Assembly: GCA_030697205.1 (NCBI GenBank)
Contig: JAUYQP010000042.1
Span: 1-64,000 of the forward strand
Reading direction: 5' to 3'
DNA from: Mycobacteriales bacterium
Lineage (GTDB): Bacteria > Actinomycetota > Actinomycetes > Mycobacteriales > SCTD01
Length of the DNA stretch: 64,000 bases
The notes beneath the pieces were generated by a model, which saw only the letters and a list, made by a program, of their open reading frames with translations, had not been told where the DNA came from and did no database searches. Both the position numbers and the translations under genes were made by a program. How positions within the stretch are numbered: the stretch's first letter is position 1; each line of letters opens with the position of its first letter. This document shows, piece by piece, positions 18,362 through 48,758 of the stretch.

Positions 18362-19507
18362 GTGCAGCGTCTGCGCGTCGCCCTGCTCGCCACCGCCCTC
18401 ACCGCCGCGCTCACCAGCGCCGCTGCCTGACCGCAACGGCGACTTCACCGCGACTTACACCTGCAACATCCCCGGCTCGGTGCTCCCGACCGCCGAGGGG
18501 CAGCCGCTGCGCCAGGCCCGCGCGTCGATCTACGGCCACGGTCTGCTCGGCAGCCAGGGCGAGGTCAACAGCTCCCACGTCGCCCGCTTCGGCGACGACG
18601 CCGCGATCCTGTTCTGCGCCACCGACTGGTACGGCATGGCGTCGGGCGACGTCCCCAACGTCGCGACCTTCCTCAACGACATGAGCCTGTTCCCGACGCT
18701 GCCCGACCGCGTGCAGAGGGGATGCTCGCCCACCTCTTCCTCGCCCGGCTCCTCAAGGACCCGCGCGGCTTCGCGAGCGACCCTGCCTTCCAGGCGGGCA
18801 GCCAGTCGCTGCACCGCACGGGCGAGGTCTACTACGACGGCAACAGCCAGGGCGGCATCATCGGCGGCGCCCTGATGGCGGTCGCGCAGGACATCACCCG
18901 CGGCGTCCTCGGCGTGCCCGGCATGAACTACTCGACGCTGCTCGACCGCTCCGTCGACTTCGCCGACTACGAGGCCGTCTTCAACGCCTCCTACCCGAGC
19001 GAGCTCGAGCGGCAGCTGGTCTTCGGCCTCATCCAGATGCTCTGGGACCGCGGCGAGGCCAACGGCTACGCCGCCCACATCAGCGCCGACCCGCTGCCCG
19101 GCACGCCGCGGCACGAGGTCCTGCTGCAGGTCGGCTTCGGCGACCACCAGGTGGCCAACCTCGCCGCCGAGGTCATGGCCCGGACCATCGGTGCGGCCAC
19201 CAACGAGGGCTTCCTCGCGCCCGGCCGGCACTGGGGCGTCGAGCCCACCTGGGGGCTGCCGCTCTTCTCCGGCAGCCACGCGGGCAGCGCGCTCGTCTAC
19301 TTCGACAGCGGCAGCCCGACGCCGCCCAACACCAACACGCCGCCCTTCGACGGCGCCGACCCCCACGAGCACCCGCGCCGCGGCCTCGACGCCCGCGCGC
19401 AGAAGTCGGCGTTCCTGCGCCCCGGCGGTCTCGTCGTCGACACCTGCGAGGGCCTGCCCTGCCGGGCCGACCCGGCCGAGGTAAACGTCTCGCAGCCGCG
19501 CTACTAG
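18362..19507 (+). pseudogene. Broken secreted esterase-like gene
   Basis: A GTG at 18362 after GGAAGG begins a normal signal peptide (MQRLRVALLATALTAALTSA) that stops at 18428. The body continues in the next frame (DRNGDFTATYTCNIPG ... IYGHGLLGSQGE ... FCATDWYGMASGDVPN) to about 18715. It then returns to the first frame (MLAHLFLARLLKDPRG ... YYDGNSQGGIIGG ... CRADPAEV) and ends at 19507. The second shift looks like loss of one base in CAGAGGGG. At the first, an N-terminal domain that I recall from homologues seems to be missing. The DGNSQGGII motif is a hydrolase-type nucleophile elbow. The gene probably makes no active enzyme. Confidence 0.75.
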
Positions 19508-20313
19508 ATGCGGGCGTCGACCCGCAGGTCGCTGGTGCACCAGCCGCAGCGGGTCGCCGCGGCCGGGACGTCGAAGGCGCAGTGCGGGCAGGCGACGAGC
19601 TCGGTCGCTCTGAAAGGCGTGGCAGAGCCAGGTACGCCGGAGGGCGCGGCCCCCGCCGCGGCCGTGACGCCGGGCGCGCTCGCGCGCCCGGCGCCGTCGG
19701 TGAGGTCCACGACCGGGTCCGTCACGAACTCCCCCGCCGGGTCCGTCGACGACTCCTGTACGGACGCCGCCGCCATCGCAGCGGACGTGCCGGACAGCAC
19801 GACCGACCCGGCACCGTTGACCGAGCCGGCGGCCATCCGGGTCGGCAGCGGCGCGAAGAGCGGGTCCGCGTCGAAGTGCACCCGGTCGCCGTCCGCCTGC
19901 GCGTCGTCGGTGAGCTCGGCGCCGGAGGTCGCGTCGTCGATGTCGACGGCGCTCACCTCCGCGACCCGCTGGACCTCGCCGTCCGCGGTCACCACCTCGG
20001 CGACCTGCGGCCCGGCCGAGGACGCGTCGAGCGCGTCCGTCGCGTCGTGCTCGCCGGTGACCGCCGCGGCAGCGGCTCGACGGCGCAGGCCCATGAGCGG
20101 CTTGATGACTCCGACGAGCGAGATGACGGCGACGGTGACGAGGGCGATGAGGGCCTTGAGGAGCCCGTCGAACTCCCACTCGCCCCGGAAGGCCGCCTGA
20201 CCGGCGTCGGTGGCCTGCGCGACGACGGCGGTGAAGGCGGCGCCGATGGAGAGGCCGACACCGACCTCCGCGACGCTGCTCCCCACGATGAAGCTCTTCA
20301 GGTCCTGCAGCAC
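19504..20313 (-). CDS. MscL-family mechanosensitive channel-like protein with zinc ribbon
   Basis: A 269-residue protein. The first 80 residues resemble MscL: LQDLKSFIVGSSVAEVGVG amphipathic start, GLSIGAAFTAVVAQ as TM1, and LIALVTVAVISLVGVIKPL as TM2. A linker of about 140 residues rich in Ala, Asp, Ser and Thr follows. The protein ends in CPHCAFDVPAAATRCGWC, a four-cysteine zinc ribbon seen at the C-terminus of some actinobacterial MscL proteins, though usually after a short linker. The GTG at 20313 has GGAGGA 6 nt upstream. MscL opens under membrane tension to release solutes. The stop shares CTAG with the broken gene at 19507. Confidence 0.7.
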   Translation of the reverse strand: MLQDLKSFIVGSSVAEVGVGLSIGAAFTAVVAQATDAGQAAFRGEWEFDGLLKALIALVTVAVISLVGVIKPLMGLRRRAAAAAVTGEHDATDALDASSAGPQVAEVVTADGEVQRVAEVSAVDIDDATSGAELTDDAQADGDRVHFDADPLFAPLPTRMAAGSVNGAGSVVLSGTSAAMAAASVQESSTDPAGEFVTDPVVDLTDGAGRASAPGVTAAAGAAPSGVPGSATPFRATELVACPHCAFDVPAAATRCGWCTSDLRVDARI

Positions 20314-20460
20314 GGCATGTCCTCCCAAACGACGGTCACCCGGCGGTCACGGGACGACGTAGCGCCGATCATGGCCTCCGGGACGCCGGCTCCGCCATAG
20401 TCCGGACCCGGTCATTTCGGAGGGTTCTGCCCTGGTCGGTCCGTCCGGTCAGCGGCCCTT

Positions 20461-20497
20461 GAGTACGGCTAACAAGCCGGATGCAATGGATCCAACC
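20461..20497 (+). repeat. Left terminal inverted repeat
   Basis: It begins GAGTACGGCTAACAAGCC. Its first 22 bases match the complement of the right end at 21 positions. Similarity then continues, with a 1-nt gap, through GGATCCAAC. The stretch also contains its own small dyad (CGGCT/AAGCCG). Confidence 0.7.
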
Positions 20498-20618
20498 GCG
20501 CCGCATCCCTGGCCTTCCTCTCGGGCCACACCGGCAAAATCTTGGGAGCGAGCTTGGCCCGAGGTGCGTCTCGTCACCGGAGCTACGTGCCGCTACCCGT
20601 CGCCCTCTTCGGCGGAAC

Positions 20619-20831
20619 TCACCAGTCCACGCCCTCTTCACCTGCGTAGGCGCTGAGGTCCTCAGACCACTCCCGCTCGGCAACGGGCACGTGATCAGCT
20701 GGGATCTCGGAGCCGTCTCCCTGAGGGATGTCGGCCTCCGTCGCGCCCGCGTCTATGTAGCGGACGGAGGGCTTCTTCCGCGGAGACTCCGAGTGCCACG
20801 CGGTGACGACCACGGCCAGGGCAAGAATCAC
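20619..20831 (-). CDS. Small membrane ORF inside the element, start uncertain
   Basis: From a GTG at 20831 this gives 70 residues: an N-terminal hydrophobic segment (MILALAVVVTAW) and an acidic soluble tail ending AYAGEEGVDW. The frame is open far upstream (through the end of hepT), with ALRKYVAEVLPLV adding to the hydrophobic part, but has no ATG, GTG or TTG near hepT. GAGG lies about 11 nt before the chosen GTG. It is downstream of hepT on the same strand and may be a third gene of the module. It could equally be a truncated gene. No family recognised. Confidence 0.4.
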   Translation of the reverse strand: MILALAVVVTAWHSESPRKKPSVRYIDAGATEADIPQGDGSEIPADHVPVAEREWSEDLSAYAGEEGVDW

Positions 20832-20949
20832 GAGGGGAAGTACCTCAGCAACGTACTTCCGCAGCGCCCGACGCCACGCCGGCGACCGTGAAGACGTGCC
20901 GCTCTGAACGGTGGCAGGCCAGCCCTCCTCGCGGCTCGTCGACAGGGTG

Positions 20950-21288
20950 TTACCCGCCTGGCGGAAGCCGATCCAGAAGTCGCCGCACCGCAACTTCGAG
21001 CGGCTCGAGATCGTGTTCGACGGCTCCGGTGACGTGGCCGTGGTTCGTGTCGAAGTACCGGTGGGCGAGGCGGTCACGCATGCGGGCGATGTCGCTCCAG
21101 GGGTGGGCCGGCTCGGTGTCGAGGAGCTCTGCAGAAATCGCCTTGATGGCCTCTCCGATCTCGATGAGCCGGACTCGGACAGCATCGAAGACAAGGCCGT
21201 CGGAGAGCCCACCGCGTGCCACGTGGCTCCGGATGGCGTCGATGGCATCAAGGATGTCCCGCAGCCTCTCGCCGTCGCGGCGGCTCAC
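20950..21288 (-). CDS. hepT: HEPN-domain toxin HepT (DUF86)
   Basis: A 112-residue all-helical HEPN protein. The RDRLAHRYFD segment near residue 74 is the Rx4HxY motif of HEPN ribonucleases. IEIGEAIKAIS and LLDRLPP also fit the DUF86 family. HepT toxins cleave RNA and are neutralised when the partner MNT protein adds AMP groups to the tyrosine of this motif. The ATG overlaps the TGA of the XRE-MNT gene by 4 nt (ATGA), so the antitoxin is made first. It lies inside the element at 20461-21892. Confidence 0.9.
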   Translation of the reverse strand: MSRRDGERLRDILDAIDAIRSHVARGGLSDGLVFDAVRVRLIEIGEAIKAISAELLDTEPAHPWSDIARMRDRLAHRYFDTNHGHVTGAVEHDLEPLEVAVRRLLDRLPPGG

Positions 21289-21800
21289 AGCGCGACCGCA
21301 TCGGCAAGGGCCTCGTCCCGCACCCGTGGCTTCAGGCTGCTGACCGGCGCGAGGTCGACGTTGACCTTGAGGATGCGCTCAAGGGTGCCCTCGAGAGCCA
21401 GGACCGCGAACAGGCTGGTCTGCTCGGGAAGGTCGACGAGCAGGTCCACGTCGCTGTCGGGACCGTCCTCTCCGCGGGCCACGCTGCCGAACACCCGCAG
21501 GTTGCTGGCTCCCGCGTCCCGGACCGCCTCGAGCAGGGCCTTGCGGTGCCGCCGCAAGCGCCGACCGAGTGGCGTGTCGGGCAGGCCGCGGACCGCGGGG
21601 TCGCGCCGTTCCAAGCCAAGGGTGAGCTCGTGACCTGTTGCCGCGACGAGCCGCGCCAGCGTCGGGACCGCCGGCTGCCGCTTGTCGGCTTCGTACTCGC
21701 TCACCACGCTCTGGGTCACACCAGCCCGCGCGGCGAGCTCGGACTGCGACAGGCCAGCACGCCGACGCGCCTCTCGCAAGAGCTCACCCGTCGACCCCAC
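21285..21800 (-). CDS. XRE-MNT fusion antitoxin
   Basis: A 171-residue protein with two parts. Residues 1-65 are an XRE helix-turn-helix (LSQSELAARAGVTQSVVSEYE). Residues 95-170 are a minimal nucleotidyltransferase: FGSVARGEDGPDSDVDLLVDL contains the GSx10DxD catalytic motif, intact. It is predicted to AMPylate and silence HepT and to repress its own promoter through the XRE domain. The GTG start at 21800 is 7 nt after a TAGGCT hexamer (21808-21813), the same arrangement as guaA. No ribosome site is seen, so a leaderless mRNA is likely. Confidence 0.88.
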   Translation of the reverse strand: MGSTGELLREARRRAGLSQSELAARAGVTQSVVSEYEADKRQPAVPTLARLVAATGHELTLGLERRDPAVRGLPDTPLGRRLRRHRKALLEAVRDAGASNLRVFGSVARGEDGPDSDVDLLVDLPEQTSLFAVLALEGTLERILKVNVDLAPVSSLKPRVRDEALADAVAL

Positions 21801-21856
21801 GGTGCAGAGCCTATCGCGTTTTGCCGATAAGCAGCTAGGTGCCGTGATCAGCCGGT

Positions 21857-21892
21857 AGTTGGACCCAAATATCCGGCTTGTGAGCCGTACTC
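21857..21892 (-). repeat. Right terminal inverted repeat
   Basis: Read on the minus strand it begins GAGTACGGCTCACAAGCC, then GGAT and GGGTCCAAC, the inverted partner of 20461-20497. The last bases contribute two letters of the SDR stop codon. Confidence 0.7.
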
Positions 21893-22700
21893 AGCGGCGC
21901 TTGAGCGAGGGGTGCTGGCGCACGAGCAGCGGCATCAGCAACCCGTGCGGGACGACCTTGGACAGCACCGAGCTGGCGCGGTTGCCGAGCCCGGGGATCA
22001 CGACCGCCTTGCCCGCCGCCATCCCGTCGACCCCGGCGCGGGCGACGTCGGTGGCGCTGACGTAGAGGACCTTGGGTAGCGCGCCCTCGAACTGCTCCTG
22101 CGTCCAACCGGTCGCGGCGGCGAACTCCGTGTCGACCGGTCCGGGGCACAGCGCCGTCGCGGTCACCCCGGTGCCGCGGAGCTCTGCGCCGACCGCCCGG
22201 GTGTAGCTGAGGACGAAGGCCTTGCCGGCGGCGTAGCCCGCCTGACCGGGCAGCGGCTGCATGGCGGCGGTCGAGGCGACGTTGAGCACCGCGCCGCGGC
22301 CGCGCTCGACCATGCCCGGCAGCAGCAGGCTGCAGAGGTGGACGACCGCCTCGACGTCGACCTTGAGCATCCCGAGCTCGCGCTCCGGGTCGCTCTCGTG
22401 CACCGGCCCCGACGTCGACAGCCCGGCGTTGTTGACGAGCACCACAGGCTCGAGGCCGCGGGCTGCCACCTCGGCGACCACGTGCCGCCGAGCCTCAACA
22501 TCGGAGAGGTCGGCCCGCACGACCTCGACGCGGACCCCCGTGAAGGTCGCAGCGAGCTCGCGCAGTCGCTCCTCCCGACGGGCCACGAGGGTGACTCCGT
22601 GGCCGCGCGCGACGAGCTCCTTCGCGATCTCCACACCGATGCCGGCGGAGGCCCCCGTGACGATCGCGGTCCGGTCAGGGGCGGGTGCAGGGAGCGGCAT
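21891..22700 (-). CDS. Short-chain dehydrogenase/reductase (YdfG/DltE-like)
   Basis: A 269-residue classical SDR. It shows TGASAGIG as cofactor motif, RREERL (NADP-favouring Arg), VNNAGLSTSG, NVASTAAMQP with the active serine and the GYAAGKAF Y-x3-K pair. CPGPVDTEF follows. The C-terminal 40 residues (VVPHGLLMPLLVRQHPSLKRR) are an amphipathic tail common in the DltE-like group. The ATG at 22700 follows AGGGTG. The stop codon straddles the right end of the element at 20461-21892. The displaced sequence on the far side also reads TGA in frame, so the insertion left the protein unchanged. Confidence 0.85.
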   Translation of the reverse strand: MPLPAPAPDRTAIVTGASAGIGVEIAKELVARGHGVTLVARREERLRELAATFTGVRVEVVRADLSDVEARRHVVAEVAARGLEPVVLVNNAGLSTSGPVHESDPERELGMLKVDVEAVVHLCSLLLPGMVERGRGAVLNVASTAAMQPLPGQAGYAAGKAFVLSYTRAVGAELRGTGVTATALCPGPVDTEFAAATGWTQEQFEGALPKVLYVSATDVARAGVDGMAAGKAVVIPGLGNRASSVLSKVVPHGLLMPLLVRQHPSLKRR

Positions 22701-22723
22701 GGCCCGCACCCTACGACCCGCCG

Positions 22724-47783: not shown

Positions 47784-48758
47784 TCACGCCCCCAGGGCCT
47801 GCTCGACCAGCGCGACGGCGCTCTTGAGGTCGTCGGCCCGCGTCACCCGCGCCGGCAGCTCAGCACCGACCCAGCCGGGACCCCCGACGACCACAGCGGT
47901 CGCGGGCCGGGTCGTGGGGAGCCGCTCCAGCACGGCCGGGTCCGCGGTGCTCGCGAGCTGGCTCCACAGGAACAGCGCGGCGGGACCAGTACGTCGTACG
48001 GCGGCGGCGAGCGCGTCCGCAGGCATGGCGGCACCGAGGGTGCGCGAGACGTGCCCGCGCTCGGCGAGCGCGGCTCCGAGGACGTGCAGAGGCAGCGCGT
48101 GCTGGTCGTCGGGGGCGCAGGCGAGCAGCACCGGTCGGGCACCCTCCTGCCGGTCCGGCACGATCTCCCGCAGGGCGGTCGTCACGCAGTCCGACAGCAG
48201 GTGCTCGACCTCGACGCCCTGACCGGTCGCGGCCCAGCGGGCTCCAACCGCGGCGAGCACGGGACGCAGCACGTCGTCCCAGGTCGCAGTGACGCCCCGC
48301 CGGGCCAGCTCGGCGCGGACCGCCTCGGTGACGGCCGGGCCGTCGAGCGCCATCGCCGCCCGACCGAGCCCGCGCACTGCGGCCTCCGCGCCGGGCAGCG
48401 GGAGCACCCTGCCGCCGCCGGCGGGCGCCTGCAGCCGGCCGTCACGGGTCGGGAGCGGCGCGGTGTCGCGGCCGCTGACGAGCGGCTCGACCTCGAGGGC
48501 CGCCTGGGCCGCGGACGCGGGCGGGACCCCCTGCAAGGTCAGCCGCCGCATGGTCTGCAGCCGGGCGACGTCACGAGGGCTGTAGCGGCGGTGCGCACCG
48601 GCGGCGTGGCCGGTCGGGCCGAGGCCGTAGCGCCGGTCCCAGGTGCGCAGCGTCGCGGGAGCCACCCCCAGTCGGTGGGCGACCGCGGCGACGCTGAGGG
48701 GCGCCTCGGGGAGGTCGGGTGTCGGCACGTCGTCCGCACGCGCCCCGGTGGTCCCCAT
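47784..48758 (-). CDS. MerR-family regulator with cobalamin-type sensor domain
   Basis: A 324-residue protein. Residues 20-90 are a MerR helix-turn-helix (LSVAAVAHRLGVAPATLRTW then DRRYGLGPT). The C-terminal 200 residues fit the CarH/LitR layout: a four-helix part with RWAATGQGVEVEHLLSD (the Trp...Glu-His motif that covers the upper face of B12) and a Rossmann part with CAPDDQHALPLHVLGAAL, whose His is in the axial-ligand position although the following Gly of DxHxxG is absent. It may sense B12 and light or be a B12-free derivative. Start ATG 48758, or GTG 48764. It is divergent from whiD. Confidence 0.75.
   Translation of the reverse strand: MGTTGARADDVPTPDLPEAPLSVAAVAHRLGVAPATLRTWDRRYGLGPTGHAAGAHRRYSPRDVARLQTMRRLTLQGVPPASAAQAALEVEPLVSGRDTAPLPTRDGRLQAPAGGGRVLPLPGAEAAVRGLGRAAMALDGPAVTEAVRAELARRGVTATWDDVLRPVLAAVGARWAATGQGVEVEHLLSDCVTTALREIVPDRQEGARPVLLACAPDDQHALPLHVLGAALAERGHVSRTLGAAMPADALAAAVRRTGPAALFLWSQLASTADPAVLERLPTTRPATAVVVGGPGWVGAELPARVTRADDLKSAVALVEQALGA

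Follow-up and report, generated by a model that had tools for sequence, protein, structure and literature searches.

A HepT/XRE-MNT toxin-antitoxin pair carried by a probable transposase-less transposon with sister units in a Frankiaceae genome

How does a toxin-antitoxin (TA) pair come to lie between inverted repeats when no transposase gene accompanies it? The question is raised by one locus in the window, the whole 64,000-nucleotide stretch of DNA analysed here, in which positions 20460-21893 most probably (probability roughly 0.88) represent a 1,434-bp non-autonomous transposon with passenger genes, of the kind called a mobile insertion cassette or MITE. The locus comprises the following features (window coordinates).

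20452..20459, no strand: left target-site duplication copy GCGGCCCT, immediately adjoining the left end and matching 21894-21901 at 7 of 8 positions
20460..20493, plus strand: left terminal inverted repeat, A-type end TGAGTACGGCTAACAAGCCGGATGCAATGGATCC (end model R1, 41.6 bits, E 3.5e-10)
20619..20948, minus strand: small ORF with one hydrophobic stretch, part of the cargo (ORF list)
20950..21288, minus strand: hepT-like toxin gene, 112 aa, RX4HXY intact (RDRLAHRY) (Pfam PF01934, E 5.5e-18)
21285..21800, minus strand: XRE-MNT antitoxin gene, 171 aa, N-terminal HTH plus nucleotidyltransferase, GSX10DXD intact GSVARGEDGPDSDVD (Pfam HTH_3 1.2e-13, NTP_transf_2 1.5e-13)
21861..21893, minus strand: right terminal inverted repeat, B-type end TGAGTACGGCTCACAAGCCGGATATTTGGGTCC (end model, 35.1 bits, E 3.9e-8)
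21891..21893, minus strand: TGA stop of the SDR gene, provided by the unit's end
21891..22709, minus strand: flanking SDR (short-chain dehydrogenase) gene, outside the unit, its 3' end being the insertion point (Pfam PF00106, 3.6e-44)
21894..21901, no strand: right target-site duplication copy GCGGCGCT, the final bases of the SDR coding sequence

The unit is bounded by 23-nt inverted ends that are identical at 22 of 23 positions (TGAGTACGGCTAACAAGCCGGAT at 20460-20482, plus strand, and TGAGTACGGCTCACAAGCCGGAT at 21871-21893, minus strand). Their similarity reaches 37 nt at 81% in the longest extension, and the conserved block of the end sequence, TGAGTACGGCTNACAAGCCGGAT, runs to about 33 nt. 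The inverted ends described in an earlier note on this DNA are real, but the unit spans one base more on each side than the 20461-21892 given there. With up to three mismatches allowed, the two ends are the sole matches both in the 64-kb window (0 of 100 in shuffled controls) and in the 4.02-Mb genome. A direct repeat, CAGCGGC(C/G)CTTGAG, is identical at 13 of 14 positions and overlaps the ends on both sides; once the TGAG...CTCA ends are left out, 8 bp of it remain, GCGGC(C/G)CT, with 7 of 8 positions identical (the target repeat is also written TCAGCGGCSCTTGAG). The 10-bp direct repeat reported earlier, AGCGGC(C/G)CTT, is likewise present, but the duplication itself measures 8-9 bp and the rest consists of bases common to the ends. 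As originally described, the cargo is an XRE-MNT/HepT pair with a small membrane ORF, and neither the ORF list nor Pfam revealed a transposase gene inside the unit.

Units with the same ends occur in a second genome of the same family, the Frankiaceae MAG JAENVS01 (G003), in which a pattern search of 24 family genomes recovered four inverted pairs.

G003:C42:48463-48672, 210 bp: C42 unit, a near-empty hairpin MITE
G003:C35:53826-54104, 279 bp: C35 unit, a near-empty hairpin MITE
G003:C1:103353-103559, 207 bp: C1 unit, a near-empty hairpin MITE
G003:C24:43321-44132, 812 bp: C24 unit, carrying a 137-aa response-regulator receiver protein

The same ends around other cargo, proposed beforehand as a supporting result, are thus present in the four G003 units, whose cargo is either the response regulator or not recognisable. 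The C42, C35 and C1 units contain no recognisable gene and fold as long hairpins with nested palindromes, and those of C1 and C42 share interior sequence beyond the ends. Palindromes beginning CGTACGGATCAA, nested in the C35 and C24 units, hint at a second small repeat family in G003. A 37-position end model, built from the ten ends themselves, recovered exactly ten ends in five inverted pairs from the 24 family genomes (E ≤6e-8 versus 0.02 for the next match). The ends of the family can be written TGAGTACGGCNNACAAGCCGGAT; CGGC-NN-ACAAGCCGGA is common to all ten ends, together with a second block near GGGTCC, and the inner dyad CGGC..GCCG is unchanged in 10 of 10, which fits selection on pairing or on sequence alike. 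From GGAT to the end of the GGGTCC block, the distance is 11 nt at one end and 10 nt at the other in every one of the five units, which therefore have a constant polarity. Among 84,980 genomes, an exact 18-mer of the end gave six matches and was paired only in the Frankiaceae MAG contig JAENVS010000042.1. The other five matches (Alphaproteobacteria, Carboxydothermus, Neisseriales, TM6 and a proteobacterium) have no second end, and their number is about that expected by chance according to a rough estimate.

The flanks of the units carry target duplications of graded quality, identical at 8/8 positions for C35, 8/9 for C1, 7/8 for the window unit and 6/8 for C42, with no clear duplication for C24 (4/8). 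When the pairing of flanks was permuted, the observed score was reached by 1 of 120 arrangements, the true pairing, and a flank pair with at most one mismatch arose at random window positions at a frequency of 0.0023. A search with the joined flanks of the four G003 units against congeners of G003 located the C35 site unoccupied in G011, where GAACTCAGGCGCCGACGAG occurs once and not twice as it does around the unit in G003, the C1 site without the unit in G011, G008 and G014, and the C42 site without the unit in G011. For the window unit itself, the family genomes yielded no empty allele, because the left gene (19504-20328) has no family homologue and the SDR orthologues are otherwise flanked, adjoining different genes in other genera. 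The earlier expectation of an empty site is accordingly borne out at three of the four sister-unit sites, one with a single repeat copy, but not at the window site. The left-neighbour protein (19504-20328, minus strand) has a possible MscL-like start (NCBIfam E 9e-4), and the 23 other genomes of the family lack a homologue of it. Taken with the ends and the sister units, the duplications and empty sister sites show that units of this kind have moved, most probably by transposition.

Several other origins have to be weighed against these data. It is extremely improbable that the ends are a transcription terminator pair around an ordinary chromosomal TA operon: although each end includes a stem of 4-5 bp, and the right one directly follows a gene, a scan gave no terminator-like site at either end, unrelated interiors are enclosed by the same ends, and the ends are absent at orthologous sister-species sites. 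Neither of the outcomes that had been held to speak against a transposition event, colinearity in all relatives or ends that are merely a terminator pair, was encountered. Elements of the REP/REPIN type, mobilised by a RAYT (Y1 HuH) enzyme, or further kinds of gene-end hairpin repeat would share with these units a GTAC-preceded hairpin in each end, the inverted pairing and the location at gene 3' ends. However, the ends are always paired, never solo or arrayed, in the 24 family genomes, two of the units carry genes, and duplications are present against an empty site, whereas Y1 transposition produces no target duplication, which makes such an origin very improbable. The location at gene 3' ends could also be read as the trace of a tyrosine or serine recombinase that integrated a circular cassette at a fixed attachment core, the direct repeats being attL and attR. 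The 12-16 bp direct repeats, CTCA/TGAG included, and the hyphenated dyad CGGC-N6-GCCG in each end would suit this scenario. Yet the repeat varies by site (GCGGCSCT, GGCGCCGA, GGCGGCCG) and agrees with the empty site at each place, as expected of a target duplication, both ends are the same sequence inverted, as a transposase requires, and a recombinase gene is absent from all five units; site-specific integration is accordingly improbable, and a non-autonomous transposon is the preferred reading.

For such a transposon, the enzyme would have to come from elsewhere. The family's features are those usual for elements moved by DDE transposases: two conserved blocks within inverted ends of about 33 nt, a duplication of 8-9 bp and a target close to a palindrome. 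The unit may have been inserted by a transposase that acted in trans on its ends, in all likelihood the DDE enzyme of an insertion sequence whose own 33-nt ends match, and that made a staggered cut of 8-9 bp at a CTCA-N8 target, so that N8 was duplicated. The target resembles the unit's TGAG/CTCA ends, and a stop would thereby be rebuilt at TGA, leaving the neighbouring gene unharmed. The same ends around a transposase, the other context anticipated in the earlier note, did not come to light: searches of the window genome (G000) and G003, both of which are draft assemblies, and of 22 other family, 399 order and 297 class genomes gave no transposase or insertion sequence with these ends. Outside the family, the order-wide pattern search gave just 3-mismatch matches with no obvious inverted pair, and the class-wide end-model search returned the window ends alone. 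No plasmid matched the C42 MITE, one end alone or the unit as a whole, and phages gave weak matches to the MITE interior alone. In viral contigs the 18-mer had no match, and a looser pattern gave four single chance-level matches with no second end. An IS256-type parent (PF00872) was rejected, with four matches in G000, of which just one is an intact element and is bounded by different ends (GTCCCCTGGAGTGG...), and no match in G003. In the light of these negative searches, we infer mobilisation in trans by an insertion sequence that has been lost, was not assembled or was not sampled.

The genes for the HepT-like toxin and the XRE-MNT antitoxin overlap by 4 nt. A PF01934 toxin with RX4HXY lies beside a PF01909 antitoxin with GSX10DXD, and these two motifs define the adenylylating HEPN/MNT class (PMC7641770). 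The pair resembles the HepT/MntA type VII TA system (PMC7641770) in its PF01934/PF01909 composition, its overlapping genes with the antitoxin first and its RX4HXY and GSX10DXD motifs, but the window antitoxin has an extra N-terminal HTH. The NCBIfam MntA/HepT equivalog scores are 40.8 and 23.9 bits, below cut-offs of 60 bits each, which are a naming threshold and not a defining trait; because of these scores the pair is, judging from its sequence, a divergent member of the HepT/MntA class. The cargo would thus be a type VII XRE-MntA/HepT pair, in which the HTH-MNT protein probably acts as regulator of the operon and probably inactivates the HepT RNase through adenylylation, which in the HepT/MntA class falls on the HepT tyrosine. 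No strong operator dyad with arms of at least 6 nt was detected upstream of the XRE-MNT gene. The small ORF at 20619-20948 has no Pfam match and no homologue among the other 23 family genomes. If active, as TA biology suggests, the pair would penalise loss of the unit and could thereby stabilise it.

Related TA loci are present in both host genomes. Two other recognisable HepT copies in the window genome, on G000:C47 and G000:C10, appear frameshifted, for which draft-assembly errors are possible. The former is a HepT remnant (G000:C47:46498-46819) with 76% DNA identity to the window hepT, frameshifted and with no adjoining MNT gene, and the latter (G000:C10:3345-4132) includes a second XRE-MNT gene, 57% identical, with an apparently frameshifted hepT. 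An intact XRE-MNT/HepT pair is located at G003:C24:12.4-13.2 kb. The suggestion that a MITE-like unit explains the scattered TA copies does not hold, as the G000:C10 locus, the G003:C24 pair and the HepT remnant on G000:C47 all lack such ends; the vehicle therefore did not spread them.

Among known systems, the unit is functionally a mobile insertion cassette (MIC), with ends and cargo that are new. It has two inverted terminal repeats, a passenger, a target duplication and no transposase gene, as in MIC231A1 and mic-qnrD (PMC3913671), and empty alleles are available for its sister units. MIC231A1 of Bacillus cereus is mobilised in trans by the IS231A transposase (PMC3913671), a mode of movement that we infer for the window unit as well. 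A parent insertion sequence with matching ends is known for MIC231A1 and not for mic-qnrD, and is not strictly required of a MIC. The window unit differs from these MICs (PMC3913671) in its unrelated ends and type VII TA cargo, and the duplication of mic-qnrD is 2 bp (PMC3913671), whereas that of the window family is 8-9 bp at CTCA-N8. TIMEs and mosaics of Tn3 origin (PMC4133298) likewise combine miniature elements with larger non-autonomous cargo relatives that have common ends. However, TIMEs have 38-bp Tn3-type ends, 5-6 bp duplications and AT-rich targets (PMC4133298), in contrast to the TGAG ends, 8-9 bp duplications and GC-rich targets of the window family, and TIME mosaics hold cargo between two units (PMC4133298), whereas here it lies inside one unit. 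A Tn3-family derivative (TIME) was rejected on account of the 8-9 bp duplication and the ends beginning TGAG. A HepT/MntA pair also lies within TnSod9, a Shewanella Tn3-family transposon of the Tn21 subgroup (PMC7157771), but TnSod9 has its own tnpA and tnpR (PMC7157771), while the window unit has no transposase or resolvase gene and encodes an antitoxin in which XRE and MNT are fused. The open-licence papers searched gave no description of a TA pair carried by a unit that lacks a transposase. The window unit is a well-bounded case in which a transposase-less unit has a TA pair as its main cargo, and its sister units show the vehicle without that pair. It makes testable the movement of TA modules between chromosomal sites without plasmids or phages, as well as the question of whether an addiction module protects a small non-autonomous element from loss.

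In three of the five units (window, C35 and C1), the neighbouring gene runs in frame into the TGA that starts the unit's right end, and the unit's own TGAG rebuilds the neighbour's stop. The SDR protein ends in ...RQHPSLKRR* and its G028 orthologue in ...RQHPALRAR*, a match from which it follows that the stop position is ancestral, and the empty C35 allele has a native stop at the equivalent position. The C42 unit lies 11 bp past a stop codon, and the C24 unit is not at a stop. With a site CTCA-N8, a unit end CTCA and a duplicated N8, the gene end is therefore rebuilt exactly, and such stop-restoring insertion shows how a unit can adjoin a gene end without damage. Selection against harmful insertions would by itself account for the stop-site bias at these five sites, and a true preference of insertion for stops is possible. 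A bolder and rather doubtful proposal is that the family depends on an undescribed transposase favouring CTCA-N8, TGA stops included, with TGAG ends that restore the stop exactly. If true, harmless insertion at gene ends would be built in, and here it would be spreading a self-stabilising TA module. As a separate observation, the right flank of the C42 unit (near 48673), in the stop region of a lysine/alanine-rich gene, contains an 11-bp tandem repeat, TGACCCGACGY, as after an earlier insertion or slip.
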